Of a stretch of DNA of 64,000 bases, positions 2,395 to 24,570 are shown in pieces. The notes under the pieces were generated by a model. The model ran no database searches, was not told where the DNA came from, and worked only from the letters and a program-made list of their open reading frames with translations. Numbering within the stretch: the first letter of the stretch is position 1; every line of letters starts with the position of its first letter. A program made the translations under genes and the position numbers. The stretch lies in assembly GCF_002335805.1 (NCBI RefSeq), contig NZ_NISU01000001.1, positions 1,868,079 through 1,932,078 on the forward strand. The letters run 5' to 3'. The stretch is from Bacillus sp. FJAT-45350 (GTDB lineage Bacteria; Bacillota; Bacilli; Bacillales; NISU01).

Positions 2395-2970
2395 TTATTT
2401 CTTTGCAGTTAAGTGGCTTTCAATAGCATTTGTTACTTCAAACACAGTATGAGAAAGCTCATAGTTCTCAAATGCATGTTCACATTTTTCTTTGTAATTT
2501 AACTCTTCATCATAGTGACTCATATGCTCTTCAATTACTTCAGGAGTATCTCCACGTTCTTCTTGTCGTTTAATAACAGTATCTCTATCAGCATATAAGA
2601 AAATACGAATGACTTTATCTCCATATAGTTCTTTAAGTATGTCAGCACCATGATTATTTAAAACAATATAAATACAACCATGTTTTGAGAAGCTTTCTTT
2701 TACATCAGCTTCTTTGATTCCATAAAGTTGGCCATTAATTTCAACCTTCTCAATAAACTCATTATTATCGTATGCTTGTTTGAAATCTTCTCTAGAAAGA
2801 TAATGATAATCTACATCTTCAGTTTCATAAGGACGTTTTTTTCGAGTTGTTGATGATACAACACCTTCCATATTAAGTGTGCTACCAACAAGCTTCGCAA
2901 TCGTTTTTCTTCCGGAACCGTCTGGACCTGTAAAAACAAAAATCATTTCCTTTTCATTTAGATTATACAT
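2395..2970 (-). CDS. Guanylate kinase-like protein with altered P-loop
   Basis: This 191-residue protein has the guanylate kinase fold. An N-terminal P-loop (GPDGSGRKT, residues 15-23) is followed by STTRKKRPYE and VDYHYLSREDF, which match the GMP-binding and lid segments of Gmk, then a YGI motif and an RQEERGD lid arginine region. The start is taken at the third in-frame Met (2970) because GGGAGGA sits 6 bases upstream. The Walker A lysine position is Arg (G-R-K-T instead of G-K-G-T), unusual for an active enzyme. It is probably a paralogue of the housekeeping gmk, which in Bacillus lies near rpoZ. Function is open: a kinase with shifted lysine or a nucleotide-sensing derivative. Confidence 0.75.
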   Translation of the reverse strand: MYNLNEKEMIFVFTGPDGSGRKTIAKLVGSTLNMEGVVSSTTRKKRPYETEDVDYHYLSREDFKQAYDNNEFIEKVEINGQLYGIKEADVKESFSKHGCIYIVLNNHGADILKELYGDKVIRIFLYADRDTVIKRQEERGDTPEVIEEHMSHYDEELNYKEKCEHAFENYELSHTVFEVTNAIESHLTAKK

Positions 2971-3119
2971 ATACATTCCTCCCAATCATATCTATTACAT
3001 CAGAATATACTGAAAATTCAACTGCGATATAACCACTGCTATTACACAGTGGTTATATTATATTATTTCTCTAAAATTTTTACAATTCCTTCTTTATTTA
3101 TAACTTTTATTAATGTATT

Positions 3120-3422
3120 TTATAGGACAGTTACAAATTGGTCAATTTTACAAATTTTTAATATGTTTTTAATTGGCTCTGATGCATTAGAAATGATTAT
3201 TTCAGATTCCTTAGAAAGGGGATGTAGCCACTTGATTAATAAGCTCACTCCAGTTGAATCGATAAATCTCACATCGGATAAATCAATTTCAATCTCCTTC
3301 GCTTTCACTTCAAAATCTTGTTCCATTATCGTAATCTCCAATTCACGAGCAGTTTCAAAATTAATATCCCCCTGTACAATTACAGCAAGCTTCGAATCCT
3401 CTTTATTTATAAATTCAATCAT
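3120..3422 (-). CDS. STAS-domain anti-anti-sigma factor (RsbV-like)
   Basis: This is a 100-residue single STAS domain. It contains DLSDVRFIDSTGVSLL, with the phosphorylatable serine at residue 56 followed by Thr57, the same arrangement and numbering as RsbV of B. subtilis. The frame extends upstream through the neighbouring kinase gene, but the start is set at the ATG at 3422, where GAGAGGAG gives a proper ribosome site. By family knowledge it would bind the RsbW-like kinase when dephosphorylated and be released when phosphorylated. It is the last gene of the group running from the globin receptor. Its dephosphorylating partner is probably the divergent receiver-PP2C protein at 5902. Confidence 0.85.
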   Translation of the reverse strand: MIEFINKEDSKLAVIVQGDINFETARELEITIMEQDFEVKAKEIEIDLSDVRFIDSTGVSLLIKWLHPLSKESEIIISNASEPIKNILKICKIDQFVTVL

Positions 3423-3444
3423 TCTAGTATGACTCCTCTCAAAT

Positions 3445-3855
3445 TTAATCCCGTAAAAAAACAACTGTAGCAATTCTACCGGTACTATCATAAAAAAACT
3501 CATGGCAAATTTGGTCGATGAACAACAAGCCTCTTCCACCGATTTGATTCGCGGATGGTGCTTCACTTGGAACGTTTTCCTCCCATTTAAAGCCCTCTCC
3601 ATAGTCCTCAATTACTAAAAAAATCTTGTTATTATCCCAGTTCACTTCTACATCAACTTTTTTATTCTCATTTGTACTAGAATGTACAATTACATTACAG
3701 AAGATTTCCCACATAGCTAATTTAAAATTGTAATAAAGTAAGCTAGTGTCATCTAACTTTATCTGTTCATTTACTTTTTCTAATATATTTTCAACATGAC
3801 TAGAAATATTGGAGTTAGTTAATACATTACATTTATATTTAATCATTGCTTTCAT
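3445..3855 (-). CDS. Anti-sigma factor-type histidine kinase-like ATPase (RsbW-like)
   Basis: This is a 136-residue GHKL ATPase domain with an N box (AMWEIFCNVIVHS), G1 box (VIEDYGEGF) and G2 box (IGGRGLLFI), the set typical of RsbW/SpoIIAB serine kinases. By family knowledge it phosphorylates the STAS protein and sequesters a target, classically a sigma factor. The start overlaps the end of the 109-residue gene by 17 bases, so translation is probably coupled; a Met at 3846 is an alternative. The STAS gene begins 22 bases after its stop. No sigma factor is encoded near it, so the bound target is unknown. Confidence 0.85.
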   Translation of the reverse strand: MKAMIKYKCNVLTNSNISSHVENILEKVNEQIKLDDTSLLYYNFKLAMWEIFCNVIVHSSTNENKKVDVEVNWDNNKIFLVIEDYGEGFKWEENVPSEAPSANQIGGRGLLFIDQICHEFFYDSTGRIATVVFLRD

Positions 3856-4168
3856 CTTTCATGAATAATTTTATCAAATCATCTAAGTACGGGTGTCTAT
3901 ATTCGCCTTGGTGTTCTAGACGATATAATTGACTCCATAATGAGTTGTAGGTTGAACGATATTTATGTGATAATGTACGATCTTGATGACTTCTTTGTAT
4001 GTGCATTAACCTCCATTTAGCGTAATTTCGTTCGACATTAAGATTTTCTATTTGTCCGATGTCTATTCGAATTAATTGCTCATTTGATTCATGAAGTAAT
4101 ACTTCTGTCATTTCCTCTAATGAATTAAATGTACGTTCTTCATATTTAAGACGAATAATATTCTCCAC
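3839..4168 (-). CDS. Orphan 109-residue protein in the partner-switching operon
   Basis: I do not recognise this family. It starts with GTG at 4168 (AGGAAG and AGGTG upstream) and overlaps the kinase gene by 17 bases. The sequence is soluble and mostly helical, with an N-terminal beta-like segment (IIRLKYEERTF) and a basic, aromatic central part (YAKWRLMHIQRSHQDR, then LWSQLYRLEHQGEYRHPYLDD). There is no signal peptide or membrane segment. Its position between an oxygen-type chemoreceptor and an RsbW-like kinase makes it a candidate input or output protein of the switch. That role is inference from context only. Confidence 0.65.
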   Translation of the reverse strand: MENIIRLKYEERTFNSLEEMTEVLLHESNEQLIRIDIGQIENLNVERNYAKWRLMHIQRSHQDRTLSHKYRSTYNSLWSQLYRLEHQGEYRHPYLDDLIKLFMKDESND

Positions 4169-4203
4169 AATTACACCTACTTCCTTTCAGTGATTCAGCA
4201 AAA

Positions 4204-5583
4204 TTAACGGAATTTACTACTTAGCTCACTATTTAAGTAACTTAATTCCTCTGCCATATTGGCAATGTTTTGAGATGCTTCTGAAATTTCTTGGAATGTT
4301 TCTTTAAATTCCTTAACAAAGCCACTAAATTTTTGAATTCTCTCATCACTTTCCTGTACACCATTTACAGAACGATCTAATACATCAATGATTCGTTGGT
4401 TCATATCACGGAATGTACTCGTTTGGTCAACAATTTTAATAAAGGCGTTCTCAAAATTTGCAGTTTTATCCTGAACCATTGTTATTTGTTCCTGGATATG
4501 ATCTAGCGCCTCTTGTGTTTGATTTGCTAATTTACGTACTTCTTTAGCAACTACAGAGAATCCTCGACCTTGTTCTCCTGCTCTTGCCGCTTCAATTGTC
4601 GCATTCAAAGAAAGAACATTTGTTTGATTCGAAATATCACGTATAACTTTAACAACCTGACCAATTTTCGTTGAGCTCTCTGTCAATTCAGTTGTTAAAT
4701 TTTTCGTCTCTTCAATAGTCTTCACAATTCTGTCAACTTCTGTTAGAGCAGAAGATACATCGTTTTTACCTGCCTGAACTTGTTCTATCATTACTTGCGA
4801 TGTTTCCTGAATTTCATTAATTCCTGTTAGCATCGTTTGTACGTGTTTCTCTTTATCCTCTATAGAAGAAGTTGTTTGTTCAGCATTAGCCGCTAACGTC
4901 ACAGAAGAATCATTTAGTCGGTGTTGTAATTCCTCAACTTCATTTAGTTTCATCATTGACGAAGTGTAGGATTCTATATATGTGTGTATCGCAATTTGCA
5001 TATCGAAAGAACATAGCTTTAGAAATGAATGATAAAGCTCTTCAATTTCTTTTGTATTTGACATCTCTCGGTTTAATACGGAAAGAACACTATTTTGAAT
5101 AACTGTATATGCTCCAATGTACCACTCCGGGAACAAGTTGATTCTATTATGTACATTACCAATTACCTTACGTCTGACTACATAATCAGAGCCTACTTCA
5201 CCAGATACCATGTCCAAAATATATTTTTGTAACGTTAACTTCAATTTATCAATAGAAGAATTAGTATCAATGATTTGTAATAAATGTGGCATCGTACTTA
5301 AACGTCCATAAAATTCGTCTACTATTATTTCAGCATTTTTTTCAAAAACAGGACGAGCATTCGCTAATCGTTGAATATCTTCCGCTTGTAAATTCACGAA
5401 TTGTAATTGAGTACGTTCATTACTATCTAATAATTCTTGAAAATGTTTTTTTACAGTGTCAGATAACGAGATTGATGAATTAAACTCTACGCTAGATGAT
5501 GGTGTAGCTTTTCCTTCCTTTTCAAAAAAATTTACTGATCCTTTTTCATTTCCAAACAACGAACTGAATGGGCATTTAGTCAT
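4204..5583 (-). CDS. Globin-coupled methyl-accepting chemotaxis protein (HemAT-like), copy 1
   Basis: This 459-residue soluble chemoreceptor has a protoglobin sensor (about residues 45-215) and a signalling domain with the hairpin tip [20 protein letters not shown] and [15 protein letters not shown]. Aligned by eye to B. subtilis HemAT, the heme-pocket residues are kept: Tyr92 (for Tyr70, in DEFYGRL), Thr117 (for Thr95) and proximal His145 (for His123, in NVHNRINL). It should therefore bind oxygen or another diatomic ligand. No transmembrane segment is present. The start is the second ATG (5583), which has AGGGGGA at good spacing. It heads an operon-like series with the orphan protein, the RsbW-like kinase and the STAS protein. 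A second, divergent copy lies at 22.1-23.4 kb. Confidence 0.9.
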
Positions 5584-5589
5584 AGTCAT

Positions 5590-5901
5590 TTCCCCCTATT
5601 ACTTAATTAACCGATATACACAATTTTATGTCATTCTATATGTAAATCTCATATTTTTTCTGTTTTTCTAGAATATAAACTTTTCAAAGGATAGTTACAT
5701 TTTCCCTTTTTACACTACTAAAAGCCTATGTATAATGATATTATATGATACATCGTAAACAATGAAAATAGATTTTATAAAAAAATACCTTAATACGTAT
5801 ATTGGCTAATGAAACGACCAAAGATAAACGATTGAAAAACATTAAGATATTTTAGTACTATCTGTGTAAACAATGGAAAGCATTTGAAAGGACGTACTGA
5901 A
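5590..5901. promoter_or_regulatory. Divergent intergenic region with SigA-type promoter (5709-5736, plus strand)
   Basis: This 312-base gap separates the receptor operon from the phosphatase gene. On the plus strand TTTACA (5709-5714), a 16-base spacer and TATAAT (5731-5736) form a good vegetative promoter, giving a leader of about 160 bases before the phosphatase start. I see no convincing minus-strand promoter and no gene in the gap. Confidence 0.55.
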
Positions 5902-7074
5902 ATGAAAATTATGATAGTGGACGATTCTCGTGATGACCAAATCCTAATTGAACATTACCTAAAACAAGCTGGTATTGACCAATTAGTATTCTATAGTTCT
6001 AGTTTAAAGGCATTTGAAGCATTAGAGTTATGGGATAGACAAAACAGTGAAAGTAAATTTCCTGATTTACTTTTAGTAGATATTATGATGCCGACAATGA
6101 ACGGTTTAGAGTTTTGTCAAATTATTAAGCAAAAGCCTAGGCTTGCAGAGATCCCTGTCATTGTTATGACTGCTAGTGATAAAATCTCTTATTTAGAACA
6201 AGCATTTGAAGTTGGTGCAAGAGACTTTATCAAAAAGCCTCTTAAAAGAATCGAATTACTATCAAGAGTAAAACAAGCCTTTAACCTTTATAAGGAACGT
6301 ATAAATCGCGAAAATGCGGAACAAAAATTATGTGATGTATTAAATGATTTACAACAAGATATCTCAATAGCTAAGCAAATCCAGAAAAACATGCTTGGCC
6401 GAGCGTTTTCAAATCAGTCTTTATCTATTGATGCTCGTTTTATTCCTTCAACAGAATTATCAGGTGATTTGTATTATTGGGTACCCATTGATAAACATAA
6501 ATACGGATTAATTATTTGCGATGTTCGAGGTCACGGTATCCCTGGTGCTCTTATCAGCATGTCGATTCGCTCTCTTCTTTATGGATTATTCACAAGAGTA
6601 ACCGAGCCTGTTCAAGTTATATCAGAATTAAATCGACACATGTACCGTCTCTATATTGCAGACGACCCTGATAGGTTAATATCTTATTATTTCACAGCTA
6701 TTTACCTATTAATTGATACAAAAGAAAAGAAAATAGAGTATAGTAATGCAGGTCATCCACCTGGTTTACTATTCAAACCAGATTCTACTCATGAAGTACT
6801 AAATATTGGTTCACCTCCTATTGGACTTCTTTCAGATATCATCATTAATAAGGGAGAAATTCAGTATGAAGTAGGGTCTACAATCTTTTTATATAGTGAT
6901 GGATTAACCGAACTGCCAGACAATCGAGAAATTGATGGCGTACAATTTTTGTGTAATATCGTCAACAAAGAAAACCTTGATGATCCGCAATTATTAGACT
7001 TAATGATCGAACATCGATTACAGGCTTCGAGTACAGAGGATGACATTTGTCTCATTTCCATTAAACTACAGTAA
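5902..7074 (+). CDS. Response regulator with PP2C (SpoIIE/RsbU-type) phosphatase output
   Basis: This 390-residue cytosolic protein has an N-terminal CheY-like receiver (acidic pair in IVDDSRDD, phospho-acceptor Asp60 in LLLVDIMMPT, Lys in FIKKPL), a short coiled linker and a C-terminal PPM phosphatase. The phosphatase keeps the metal-site aspartates (SGDLYYW, CDVRGHG, YSDGLTE, EDDICL). By family it would dephosphorylate a STAS protein when its receiver is phosphorylated. The start is the ATG at 5902, with AAAGGA 9 bases upstream; the upstream TTG has none. The receptor-kinase-STAS operon is divergent, so this phosphatase and the STAS protein are probable partners. No cognate histidine kinase is encoded nearby. 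Confidence 0.9.
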   Translation: MKIMIVDDSRDDQILIEHYLKQAGIDQLVFYSSSLKAFEALELWDRQNSESKFPDLLLVDIMMPTMNGLEFCQIIKQKPRLAEIPVIVMTASDKISYLEQAFEVGARDFIKKPLKRIELLSRVKQAFNLYKERINRENAEQKLCDVLNDLQQDISIAKQIQKNMLGRAFSNQSLSIDARFIPSTELSGDLYYWVPIDKHKYGLIICDVRGHGIPGALISMSIRSLLYGLFTRVTEPVQVISELNRHMYRLYIADDPDRLISYYFTAIYLLIDTKEKKIEYSNAGHPPGLLFKPDSTHEVLNIGSPPIGLLSDIIINKGEIQYEVGSTIFLYSDGLTELPDNREIDGVQFLCNIVNKENLDDPQLLDLMIEHRLQASSTEDDICLISIKLQ

Positions 7075-20423: not shown

Positions 20424-21716
20424 ATGTTCTGTCACCAATGTGAGCAAACACCAACAGGGGGCTGTCAAATTGTTGGAGTTTGTGGAAAGAATGAAGATAT
20501 TGCAAGTTTACAAGATACGATTGTTTTTGCCTTAAAAGGAATTGCTGCATATGCAACTCACGCAAAACAACTTGGATATACAGACCCAGATGTAGATGCT
20601 ATTACACATGAAGCATTATATCTAACACTTACAAATTCAAACTTTAATATGCAAGAACATATTGATATGGCACTAAAAGTAGGTTCTTCTGCTGTTAAAG
20701 TAATGGAACTATTAGACAAAGCTCATACTTCAAAACTAGGTATTCCTGAACCTGTAACTGTTACACAAAACAAGGTTGAAGGAAAAGCAATCATTGTTAC
20801 TGGACATAATTTATTCGCCCTTGAAGAGTTACTAAAGCAAACAGAAGGCAAAGGAATTAATATCTATACTCACTCAGAAATGCTTCCAGCTCATGGTTAC
20901 CCTGCGCTGAAGAAATACTCACATCTAAAAGGAAACATCGGTAAAGCATGGTTTGACCAACGTCGTTTATTTGAAAAATTCCAAGGGGCTATTCTTGCGA
21001 CAACAAACTGTGTAATGCCAATAAAAGGAAGTTACGCAGACCGCTTCTTCTCTTATGAAGTAGCCGGCTTAGAAGGTGTACAAAAAATTCAAGGGGAAGA
21101 CTTCAGTCCTTTAATTGATAAAGCACTTTCTTTACCAGATGCTGATATGGAAAGCGACCAAATCTTAACGACTGGCTTCCATCATGAAACAGTCATTGGT
21201 ATCGCCCCAGAAATCATTAGTGCAGTAAAAGAAGGAAAAATCAAAAGATTCTTCGTTATTGCAGGTTGTGATGCACCTGGTCCAGGAGGAGAATATTACC
21301 GTGACTTAGCAACATCATTACCAAACGATACAGTAATCATGACAACATCATGTGGTAAATTCAGATTTAATGACCATGACTTTGGAACAGTTGCTGATAC
21401 AGGCATCCCACGCTATATTGATCTCGGTCAGTGTAACAACTCTGTTTCTACTGTAAAAATTGCTTTAGCATTAGCTGACGCATTTGGCTGTGAGGTTAAT
21501 GAATTACCTGTTAGTATCGTTTTATCTTGGTTTGAGCAAAAGGCAGTTGCCATCCTTCTTGGATTGTTCAGCTTAGGAATTAAAGATGTTCGAATCGGAC
21601 CTAAACCTCCCGAGTGGATTACTCCAGGCGTATTAGGAGTATTACAAGATGCCTTTAACCTTCAATTAATTAGCACTGTTGAAGAAGATATGAATGACAT
21701 GCTTTCTCTAAACTAA
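20424..21716 (+). CDS. hcp: Hydroxylamine reductase / hybrid-cluster protein, short (class III) form
   Basis: This 430-residue Hcp has an N-terminal Fe-S cysteine set Cys3-X2-Cys6-X7-Cys14-X5-Cys20 (MFCHQCEQTP, then GGCQIVGVC) and hybrid-cluster ligands in TTNCVMPI, VIAGCDAPGPGGEYYRD and TTSCGKFRFN. The length is about 110 residues below the usual enzyme, as in class III proteins that lack part of domain I. By family it reduces hydroxylamine or nitric oxide under anoxic conditions. The ribosome site is GGAGGGG. No dedicated reductase partner (hcr) follows. An Fnr-type box upstream and a globin-coupled receptor downstream fit a low-oxygen or nitrosative role. Confidence 0.95.
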   Translation: MFCHQCEQTPTGGCQIVGVCGKNEDIASLQDTIVFALKGIAAYATHAKQLGYTDPDVDAITHEALYLTLTNSNFNMQEHIDMALKVGSSAVKVMELLDKAHTSKLGIPEPVTVTQNKVEGKAIIVTGHNLFALEELLKQTEGKGINIYTHSEMLPAHGYPALKKYSHLKGNIGKAWFDQRRLFEKFQGAILATTNCVMPIKGSYADRFFSYEVAGLEGVQKIQGEDFSPLIDKALSLPDADMESDQILTTGFHHETVIGIAPEIISAVKEGKIKRFFVIAGCDAPGPGGEYYRDLATSLPNDTVIMTTSCGKFRFNDHDFGTVADTGIPRYIDLGQCNNSVSTVKIALALADAFGCEVNELPVSIVLSWFEQKAVAILLGLFSLGIKDVRIGPKPPEWITPGVLGVLQDAFNLQLISTVEEDMNDMLSLN

Positions 21717-22077: not shown

Positions 22078-23403
22078 CTACCATTGTTTTGTTGTTTGTA
22101 ATAAATCATCAGAAACCGATGCAATTTTTTGGGATGCTTGAGCAATTTCATTAATGATTTCAGTAAATGCCTCAAGATCACTTTGAATTTCAGCATTTTT
22201 GTTTCTAGTATCTTTCATTTGGGATAAGATTTCTACAAATGATTCTTCAGTAACCTTCATATTTTGGTTACTTTGCTCAACGTAATTATCTACTTTTGTA
22301 ATGCTTTCATTGTTTTTCGCAATTTGAAGGTTCGTTTTTTCAATAAGGCGTTTTACACCTTCAACTGATTCATTCGTTTGTTCAGAAAGCTTACGTACTT
22401 CTTCTGCTACAACAGCAAAGCCTTTCCCGTGTTCACCAGCTCTAGCTGCTTCAATCGCTGCATTTAATGCAAGTAAGTTCGTTTCATTTGCTATGGATTG
22501 TACAATCGTCACGATATCTTTAATTTGATTAGCTGTCTGCTCAAACTCTTTTATGTTTTTTGTCATTTCTTTCGTTGTAATTTGAATATCTTTAATATTT
22601 TTGCTTAACCACTCGATTTGTTGGTTTCCTGTTTGTGCACGTTCTTCCGTTTGCCCAGCCAATTCTGTACCTTGACGTGACTTATTTGCTACCTCTTCTG
22701 TTTGTGCAGTTACTTCTTCAATCGATGCATTCGTCTCTTCTGCAAGTGCTGCTAAACTAGTTGACGTGTCATCCATTAATAGTTTTACTTCATTCTTTGT
22801 TTGCTCTTCTGCTTCGCGTAGCTGTATAATTTCTGCGTCATATGCTTCTAGCACGAGTTGTTGCTCAAAACTAATTAGCTTTGTTACAGCCTTAAAAGCA
22901 ATCAATATATCTTCTGGTGCTTGCAAGTGGTTTTCAATTATTTTTACAAAGCCATTAAGTAAGTCTTGATATGCACAAATATACCATTTTTGCTCTAAAC
23001 CTATTCGAACATGAGCCTTCGCAATTCTAATTCTTGTTTCTATAAATTTCTCGTCGATTACCCCTTCAAACATTTCAACTAAATGAGTACGTAGTGTACC
23101 TTGAAGTCGTTCTACTGTCGAATTATCTTTAATAATCTTCACTAACACTGGTGATAAGGCGAGTCGCTCATAAAATCTATCAACAAGTGATAATACATTC
23201 TCTTCTATAACCGGCTTTAATTCCTTTACAATCGCTAAATCTTCAATAGTTAATGTACTCATCTGAATTTGCTTATCTAAGTCAGAATTTGGTGTAACTT
23301 TTAACTTTACAGAATTTTTGTGAGCTTGACTTCTTTCTATTAAACTTTCACGATGGACACTATGTCCATTTACTTTACTTCTAAAAAAACCCAATTTACC
23401 CAA
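22078..23403 (-). CDS. Globin-coupled methyl-accepting chemotaxis protein (HemAT-like), copy 2
   Basis: This is a soluble 441-residue receptor with a protoglobin sensor (about 45-190) and a signalling helix bundle with [20 protein letters not shown] and [16 protein letters not shown]. Heme-pocket residues line up with B. subtilis HemAT: Tyr78 (RFYERL), Thr103 and proximal His131 ([10 protein letters not shown]). It is closer to HemAT in sequence than copy 1. The start is probably TTG 23403, with GAGAGGGG 8 bases upstream; the ATG eight codons earlier has no site. It may govern oxygen taxis together with CheV, whose gene lies 250 bases upstream in the same direction. Confidence 0.9.
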
Positions 23404-23564
23404 GGTGAAATCCCCTCTCATATTCAAAACCGTTTATAGTTCTAAAAATTCATTCTCTTTTATATTTATAATAATTATATCTGATCCTGTCGAATTTTAA
23501 TAGTGCTCAACCTATGATTTGTTAGGAATAAATAACGTTATCAGATTATAACGATAACCAACAA

Positions 23565-23655: not shown

Positions 23656-24570
23656 TTATAGAATTAAGTCATCAATAACTTCAACTAATTTTACAATTTC
23701 CGGCTTACTGACTTGAGCATCAGCTCCTACAACATTTCCTTTATGCTGTAAATCATCAGTAATTAATGATGAGAAAATAATAACAGGTAGTGCACCGAGT
23801 CTACTATTCTCTTTAATACGCTTTGTTAGATGATGTCCATCCATCTTAGGCATTTCTAAATCAGTAATAACAATTTCTACATGGTCTTTTAGATTAATAC
23901 TATCGTTTGATGCAAGTGATTCTAAATAGTCCCATGCTGCTCTTCCATCATCAAAGAACCGAACATCTTTATATCCAGCTTCAGATAAGGTATCTTCTAA
24001 TAGTTTTCTTAGGATTGCTGAATCTTCAGCTGCCACGATTTTCTTATTACTTCTGTCTCTTTTCCCAAGAGTTTTAAGTTGTCCTACATTAATCCCTGAT
24101 TCAGGGCTAATATCCACAACTATTTTCTCATAGTCTACTAGCAGAATCATTTGATCATCCATTTTAACAACACCAATTGTTGAACCTTGTAATCCTTGTG
24201 ATAAATCAGTTGGCTTTTCAATTTGTTCCCATGAAATTCTATGAATACGTGAGACAGAATGCACATGGAAGGCAACCTTCATTTGATTTAATTCAGCTAC
24301 AATCAGCTTATCCTGTTCAGGATTTTCACTAGGTGGAAACCCTAGTGACTTGGCTAAATCAACTACTGGTAACACTTCATCACGTAATCGAAGAATCCCC
24401 TCAATATTCGGATGACTATTTGGCATTTTCGTAATTGGTAATGGATTAATAATTTCTCTAACCTTTATAACATTTATTCCAAAAATACCCGTTCCTACAG
24501 TAAATACAATAACCTCTAGCTCATTTGTACCACTTTCTAATAAAATACCTTTACTAATATCTCCAGTCAT
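23656..24570 (-). CDS. cheV: Chemotaxis protein CheV
   Basis: This 304-residue protein matches CheV of B. subtilis in length. The N-terminal CheW domain (residues 1-160) has IFGINVIKVREIINPLPI, IEGILRLRDEVLPVVDL and the conserved VVDY-type tail. The C-terminal receiver has acidic residues in VAAEDSAIL, phospho-acceptor Asp in VIVITDLEMPKMDGH (near residue 235) and Lys in QVSKPEI. By family it couples chemoreceptors to CheA and its phosphorylation aids adaptation. The ribosome site is AAGGGGG. It stands apart from the main chemotaxis operon, as in B. subtilis, but here next to a globin receptor. Confidence 0.95.
   Translation of the reverse strand: MTGDISKGILLESGTNELEVIVFTVGTGIFGINVIKVREIINPLPITKMPNSHPNIEGILRLRDEVLPVVDLAKSLGFPPSENPEQDKLIVAELNQMKVAFHVHSVSRIHRISWEQIEKPTDLSQGLQGSTIGVVKMDDQMILLVDYEKIVVDISPESGINVGQLKTLGKRDRSNKKIVAAEDSAILRKLLEDTLSEAGYKDVRFFDDGRAAWDYLESLASNDSINLKDHVEIVITDLEMPKMDGHHLTKRIKENSRLGALPVIIFSSLITDDLQHKGNVVGADAQVSKPEIVKLVEVIDDLIL

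Follow-up and report, generated by a model that had tools for sequence, protein, structure and literature searches.

The window analysed here is a 64,000-nucleotide stretch of the Bacillus sp. FJAT-45350 genome. It contains a five-gene locus in which genes for a globin-coupled chemoreceptor, an orphan protein, a GHKL serine-kinase-like protein and a STAS protein share one strand and a receiver-PP2C phosphatase gene occupies the other (Table 1). All five open reading frames proposed in a first-pass annotation are intact and correctly placed, with the exception of the STAS start. The 163-residue STAS frame is too long; the preferred start, the ATG at 3422, yields 100 residues and sets the STAS gene 22 bases apart from the kinase gene. 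With this start, the annotated numbering Ser56-Thr57 is right. The orphan and kinase genes overlap by 17 bases, or by 8 if the kinase begins at its second ATG, and the remaining gaps within the receptor operon are 22 and 35 bases.

Table 1. Features of the locus, in window coordinates
Feature	Coordinates	Strand	Supporting match
STAS protein, 100 aa, predicted phospho-acceptor Ser56	3120..3422	-	Pfam STAS 41.5 bits
GHKL serine-kinase-like protein (RsbW/SpoIIAB type)	3445..3855	-	Pfam HATPase_c_2 48.2 bits
Orphan protein, 109 aa	3839..4168	-	No match to any family
Globin-coupled chemoreceptor, 461 aa	4204..5589	-	Pfam Protoglobin 136 bits, MCPsignal 118 bits
Intergenic region separating the divergent receptor operon and PP2C gene	5590..5883	none	Promoter-site search
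Receiver-PP2C (SpoIIE-type) phosphatase	5884..7074	+	Pfam Response_reg 90.8 bits, SpoIIE 139.6 bits

Domain scores exceed the Pfam cut-offs for four of the five proteins, the orphan being the exception. Gene content and motifs agree with the earlier description of a complete partner-switching set tied to a heme-globin chemoreceptor and lacking a linked sigma factor: the five-gene cluster holds no sigma gene. No che genes adjoin the module among its neighbours, and the closest CheV gene lies at a distance of 16 kb. The divergent intergenic region contains a single sigma-A-like site, which is weak against a shuffled background of 0.2 per region. Comparison of the relatives' upstream regions finds no conserved SigD, SigB or SigF promoter 5' of the receptor; weak SigD-like sites occur there in two genomes and are not general. 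A divergent guanylate-kinase-like protein is encoded at window positions 2395-2985, scoring 102 bits where the equivalog cut-off is 160, and a 55% relative of it lies 8 kb from an orphan gene in genome G151 (L079).

Receptor, orphan and switch proteins

The heme-pocket Tyr, Thr and His reported as kept in the receptor correspond to Tyr94, Thr119 and His147, which are invariant in 12 aligned relatives. As in HemAT-type receptors, the protein combines a protoglobin carrying heme ligands with an MCP domain whose tip, ISNQTN-[IV]-LSLNA, retains the conserved Asn, Glu and Arg. Judged by profile score, it belongs to a separate protoglobin-MCP subfamily, whose members score 204-392 bits (the window receptor 387) as compared to at most 133 bits for ordinary HemAT-like proteins. 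The LSLN of the tip is specific to this subfamily and is present also in receptors without the module. The N-terminal tail reads CPF-x5-NExGxxxFF. Its N[EQD]xG[AS] motif, picked after inspection and counted without correction for kinship, occurs in 21 of 23 receptors from orphan-bearing genomes and in 2 of 10 from orphan-less genomes (Fisher p 1e-4); the two motif-less receptors from orphan-bearing genomes read DEKGA. The idea that residues of the globin or MCP core tell module-bearing from module-less receptors was rejected, since just seven columns do so and two of these fall in the N-terminal tail. The receptor is predicted to bind heme and O2 and may affect aerotaxis; CheW-domain genes exist in the genome.

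The window also encodes an ordinary HemAT-like receptor (22078-23427, minus strand) beside a CheV-like gene (23656-24570, minus strand), so the genome has a globin receptor besides that of the module. A hybrid-cluster-protein-like gene (20424-21716, plus strand) lies in the same neighbourhood; in Anoxybacillus, only a few genes separate a relative of it from the module (L043, L054).

The orphan protein has no match among Pfam, NCBIfam or PDB sequences. Its AlphaFold2 model, a small helical fold with a beta hairpin and four helices, is confident (pLDDT 86.9), and a fold search with this model returns generic helical bundles alone, none of them prominent. The YNSLWSQLYRLEH helix is almost invariant. 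As this holds even for most stand-alone paralogs, the helix probably serves a shared function and not kinase contact. Two genomes have an orphan paralog next to a further MCP gene, and in one genome a paralog adjoins a STAS gene; most stand-alone paralogs have no chemoreceptor neighbour. These neighbourhoods, comprising about six independent contexts, are no more than suggestive. In Aneurinibacillus-like genomes, a stand-alone paralog adjoins a PAS-sigma54 activator gene (L064 7980-8315, L065 7956-8321, L161, L165, L168, L172), and in several a two-component system lies on the other side.

The kinase retains E50, N54 and the D-x-G-x-G and GGRGL boxes, that is, the N, G1 and G2 boxes of a GHKL kinase. 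Its model (pLDDT 88.7) has SpoIIAB and RsbW among its best fold matches. The window kinase nevertheless falls far under the family-specific cut-offs for RsbW (TIGR01924, 14.4 of 155 bits required; PRK04069, 21.7 of 145) and for SpoIIAB (29 of 135). It is also unlinked to sigB, which lies elsewhere with its own rsbV and rsbW. The G1-box Asp binds adenine in GHKL ATPases. This residue is missing from 5 of 13 kinases, those of Aneurinibacillus, UBA7792 and G060 (L060, L061, L063, L066, L047), suggesting that kinase activity may not be general across the relatives. The STAS Ser is retained at all five loci, as are the PP2C motifs wherever a PP2C could be aligned (none was seen at L066).

Ser56 of the STAS protein is invariant in 13 of 13 relatives, as expected of a partner-switch STAS protein. 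Genome G054 has kinase and STAS joined in a single 239-residue reading frame (L046 8667-9386), the one feature that may be an indirect sign of the kinase acting on STAS. The phosphatase is of the SpoIIE type: its acidic metal-binding motifs are kept in 12 aligned PP2Cs, one of which (A. sp. Ricciae) is split in the sequence and aligned in part. The metal aspartates noted in the first pass are thus intact in the window protein, as is the receiver Asp. The closest solved structure is 3eq2, a Pseudomonas response regulator, and the best NCBIfam model is Pseudomonas RssB, with a score far below its cut-off. The input domain varies. The receiver is intact in the window protein and most Anoxybacillus and lacks its Asp in A. 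rupiensis and G060; a receiver-like domain plus PAS occurs in B. ectoiniformans, and PAS-PAS in Aneurinibacillus.

Two further clusters with partner-switch genes lie elsewhere in the genome. Approximately 35 kb before the window (G000:C1:1828938-1832833, L051), another partner switch linked to a chemoreceptor, this one lacking globin and orphan, encodes a PAS-PAS-PP2C, a GHKL kinase, a 4HB-HAMP MCP and a STAS protein on one strand; a PP2C-kinase-MCP run in G116 (L102) resembles it. The third cluster (G000:C1:1074700-1081044, L052) encodes a GHKL protein, two STAS proteins, a PP2C and a receptor-like HAMP protein in which no MCP tip is evident.

Distribution and loss of the module

Anoxybacillus, Aneurinibacillus, Bacillus ectoiniformans and further Bacillales also have the receptor-orphan-kinase-STAS order with an adjoining PP2C. 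The first-pass annotation had named an unlinked receptor in related genomes as a refuting result; gene order in the relatives instead favours linkage of the receptor to the other genes. The arrangement extends across several families and into another order of the class, and its flanking genes and chromosomal sites differ between genomes. Searching 84,980 species genomes for the orphan gives 14 loci, 12 with the receptor-orphan-kinase-STAS order and two with stand-alone orphans, both in Aneurinibacillus. Among 397 genomes of the taxonomic order, nine hold the orphan and eight a kinase ortholog; these orthologs score 125-175 bits and the next best kinase 58. Eight further kinase orthologs in the class each adjoin an orphan. 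The kinase ortholog therefore stands beside an orphan in 16 of 16 examined genomes that carry one, and each of the 14 kinase neighbourhoods read also contains the receptor. The same gene order amid unrelated flanks, together with kinase orthologs found only beside the orphan, argues for more than chance.

In the copies read, the orphan and kinase genes overlap or almost touch, as would be expected of a stoichiometric client and its binder. Across 13 species, pairwise distances of receptor, orphan, kinase and STAS correlate with r of 0.91-0.96, a level reached in 0 of 2000 permutations; this shows co-inheritance, which vertical descent by itself would also yield. Mean pairwise identity is 0.56 for the orphan, 0.56 for the receptor and 0.33 for the kinase. 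The module is real, conserved and rare: a known kind of switch in a new arrangement, with a new small protein.

Twenty subfamily receptors occur in the taxonomic order, eight with the orphan-kinase-STAS trio and 12 without; in 11 of those 12 genomes the receptor gene is intact. Five receptor-only genomes carry the gene between murF and an esterase-cshA block. The same block follows the trio in the metagenome-assembled genome UBA7792, whose contig begins just upstream of the receptor and shows no PP2C. G310 keeps the Anoxybacillus context and lacks orphan, kinase, STAS and PP2C. G290, which is Anoxybacillus-like, represents a natural deletion, with the receptor cut to 185 residues (L144 6945-7502) and the downstream module genes gone. 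G151 has a receptor and Rec-PP2C pair with no trio at that site and no kinase ortholog in the whole genome. From this pattern, the trio behaves as one block.

In G408, from another family of the class, receptor and orphan stand side by side in a genome without a kinase ortholog. A switch that lacks either the receptor or the orphan is not seen in the neighbourhoods read. The series of receptor alone, receptor with orphan, then full set can be read as an order of action, from switch to orphan to receptor. G151 is a partial exception, as it breaks strict nesting. The nested losses are also compatible with other orders of events; for example, a receptor that has a chemotaxis output of its own might feed the switch as well. 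The receptor tree has many weak forks and requires five or six gains or losses of the module, in an order that it does not resolve.

Comparison with described systems

The closest parallels are the RsbU/RsbV/RsbW-SigB and SpoIIE/SpoIIAA/SpoIIAB-SigF switches of Bacillus, which share with the module a PP2C, a STAS protein with a phospho-acceptor Ser and a GHKL kinase. In these systems the kinase gene overlaps the gene in the client position, as it does here, and the kinase model fits the SpoIIAB and RsbW folds. In contrast to them, the module lacks a sigma factor, has a 109-residue helical protein as putative client and includes a chemoreceptor. The pairing of a receiver-PP2C with a STAS protein resembles RssB-type systems of Pseudomonas and B. 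cereus RsbY; the module differs from both in exchanging its PP2C input between species and in having no sigma factor at the locus.

The first-pass annotation considered a gas receptor feeding a partner switch to be new. This does not hold, as the heme-globin RsbR of Vibrio stressosomes feeds a STAS/GHKL-kinase switch (PMC4976288, PMC9237108). Both systems join an O2-type globin to such a switch and have no linked sigma factor. In Vibrio, however, the globin is fused to STAS within an RsbR/S/T/X core, whereas the module has an MCP-type receptor and a free, RsbV-like STAS protein. With its STAS protein separate from the receptor, the locus does not qualify as a stressosome, which would have a sensor fused to STAS together with RsbS and RsbT.

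Partner-switch genes linked to chemoreceptor or motility genes are also known from F7 stage 1 chemoreceptor clusters, which include STAS and serine phosphatase genes and an aer2-like receptor (PMC7184735), and from the motility-linked Hmp system of Nostoc (HmpU/V/W), which has no known sigma target (PMC8256260). The F7 clusters hold cheA, cheW and more che genes, none of which occurs in the locus, and the setting of Hmp is polysaccharide and motility. Neither is reported with the globin receptor-orphan pair. HemAT aerotaxis transducers share the protoglobin and MCP domains, heme ligands and conserved tip; the module receptor is set apart from them by score, by its conserved N-terminal tail and LSLN tip, and by the linked switch genes. 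An open-access literature search did not find the module, the receptor subfamily or the orphan family, and SenB with STAS gave no match. The exact module and the orphan family therefore seem undescribed.

A proposed order of action

The genes present and their order, the motifs, the co-inheritance and the nested losses together favour, at somewhat less than even confidence, a cassette in which a partner switch tunes a heme-globin chemoreceptor, acting in the order PP2C, STAS, kinase, orphan and receptor, with the orphan as a client that replaces the sigma factor. More tentative is a narrower form of this proposal: a non-transcriptional switch that has as its client a new small protein binding to chemoreceptors, and in which serine phosphorylation would reset either the sensitivity of a heme-globin aerotaxis receptor or its output. 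The reaction cycle would involve: dephosphorylation of STAS at Ser56 by the PP2C, under the control of the phosphatase's interchangeable input (a receiver, a receiver-like domain plus PAS, or PAS-PAS); binding of unphosphorylated STAS to the GHKL kinase; and release by the STAS-bound kinase of its client, the 109-residue helical protein, which takes the position of the sigma factor in Rsb systems. The freed client could then dock on the globin receptor, possibly at the conserved N-terminal tail, and alter its signalling to CheA. The orphan would thus be both kinase client and receptor adaptor. Once the PP2C is off, the kinase would rephosphorylate STAS and recapture the client.

Signalling could instead run from the receptor, with gas binding relayed by the orphan as adaptor to the kinase, and kinase and STAS controlling an unlinked transcription or sigma factor. 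The receptor gene is first in the operon, the set is co-inherited, the kinase is modelled with a fold like that of anti-sigma kinases, and the Vibrio RsbR offers a published precedent (PMC4976288). Against this, the genome's SigB and SigF have dedicated kinases and antagonists, in a separate rsbV-rsbW-sigB-rsbX locus and in spoIIAA/AB; as SigB has a complete set of regulators of its own, it can be set aside as the default target. The low RsbW and SpoIIAB scores of the window kinase and the survival of the receptor without the trio in many genomes also count against this direction, which appears rather unlikely. Both directions had been raised in the first pass. That the receptor feeds the switch is now the less likely of the two, as the receptor often occurs without the switch, the reverse was not found, and the PP2C input varies between species while the receptor is constant, suggesting that the receptor is not the usual signal source. 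That the switch tunes chemotaxis fits better, its direction being drawn from gene loss. A related route, in which the receptor acts through CheA on the receiver-PP2C making STAS phosphorylation dependent on oxygen, with the orphan as a downstream effector, would account for the intact receiver Asp in the window and most Anoxybacillus and for the continued adjacency of PP2C and receptor genes, even in the trio-less G151. Loss of the receiver Asp in A. rupiensis and G060 and the PAS-type inputs of Aneurinibacillus and B. ectoiniformans mean that it cannot be the general mechanism, and it is doubtful.

STAS itself might be the output, as in SypA, with the unphosphorylated form binding the receptor or another target and the kinase merely resetting it. 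Non-canonical STAS outputs exist (PMC8256260), and the absence of the G1 Asp in 5 of 13 kinases would suit this arrangement. It would leave without a role the orphan, which is the best-conserved switch component and is found with the receptor alone, making such an output quite improbable. Least probable, and only slightly credible, is a receptor gene co-transcribed from a shared promoter with a functionally separate switch. Subfamily receptors do persist intact without the trio, but the trio is not found away from the receptor, and the gene order is constant at different chromosomal sites in two orders of the class.

Partner switches are chiefly familiar as controllers of sigma factors, and chemoreceptors as proteins tuned by methylation. 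If the proposed tuning of the globin receptor by the cassette is real, a serine switch that depends on a chemoreceptor gene would join partner switching and chemoreception. It would also provide an anti-sigma-type kinase with a client of a new kind, in a genetically simple three-gene test system with natural losses in sister species.
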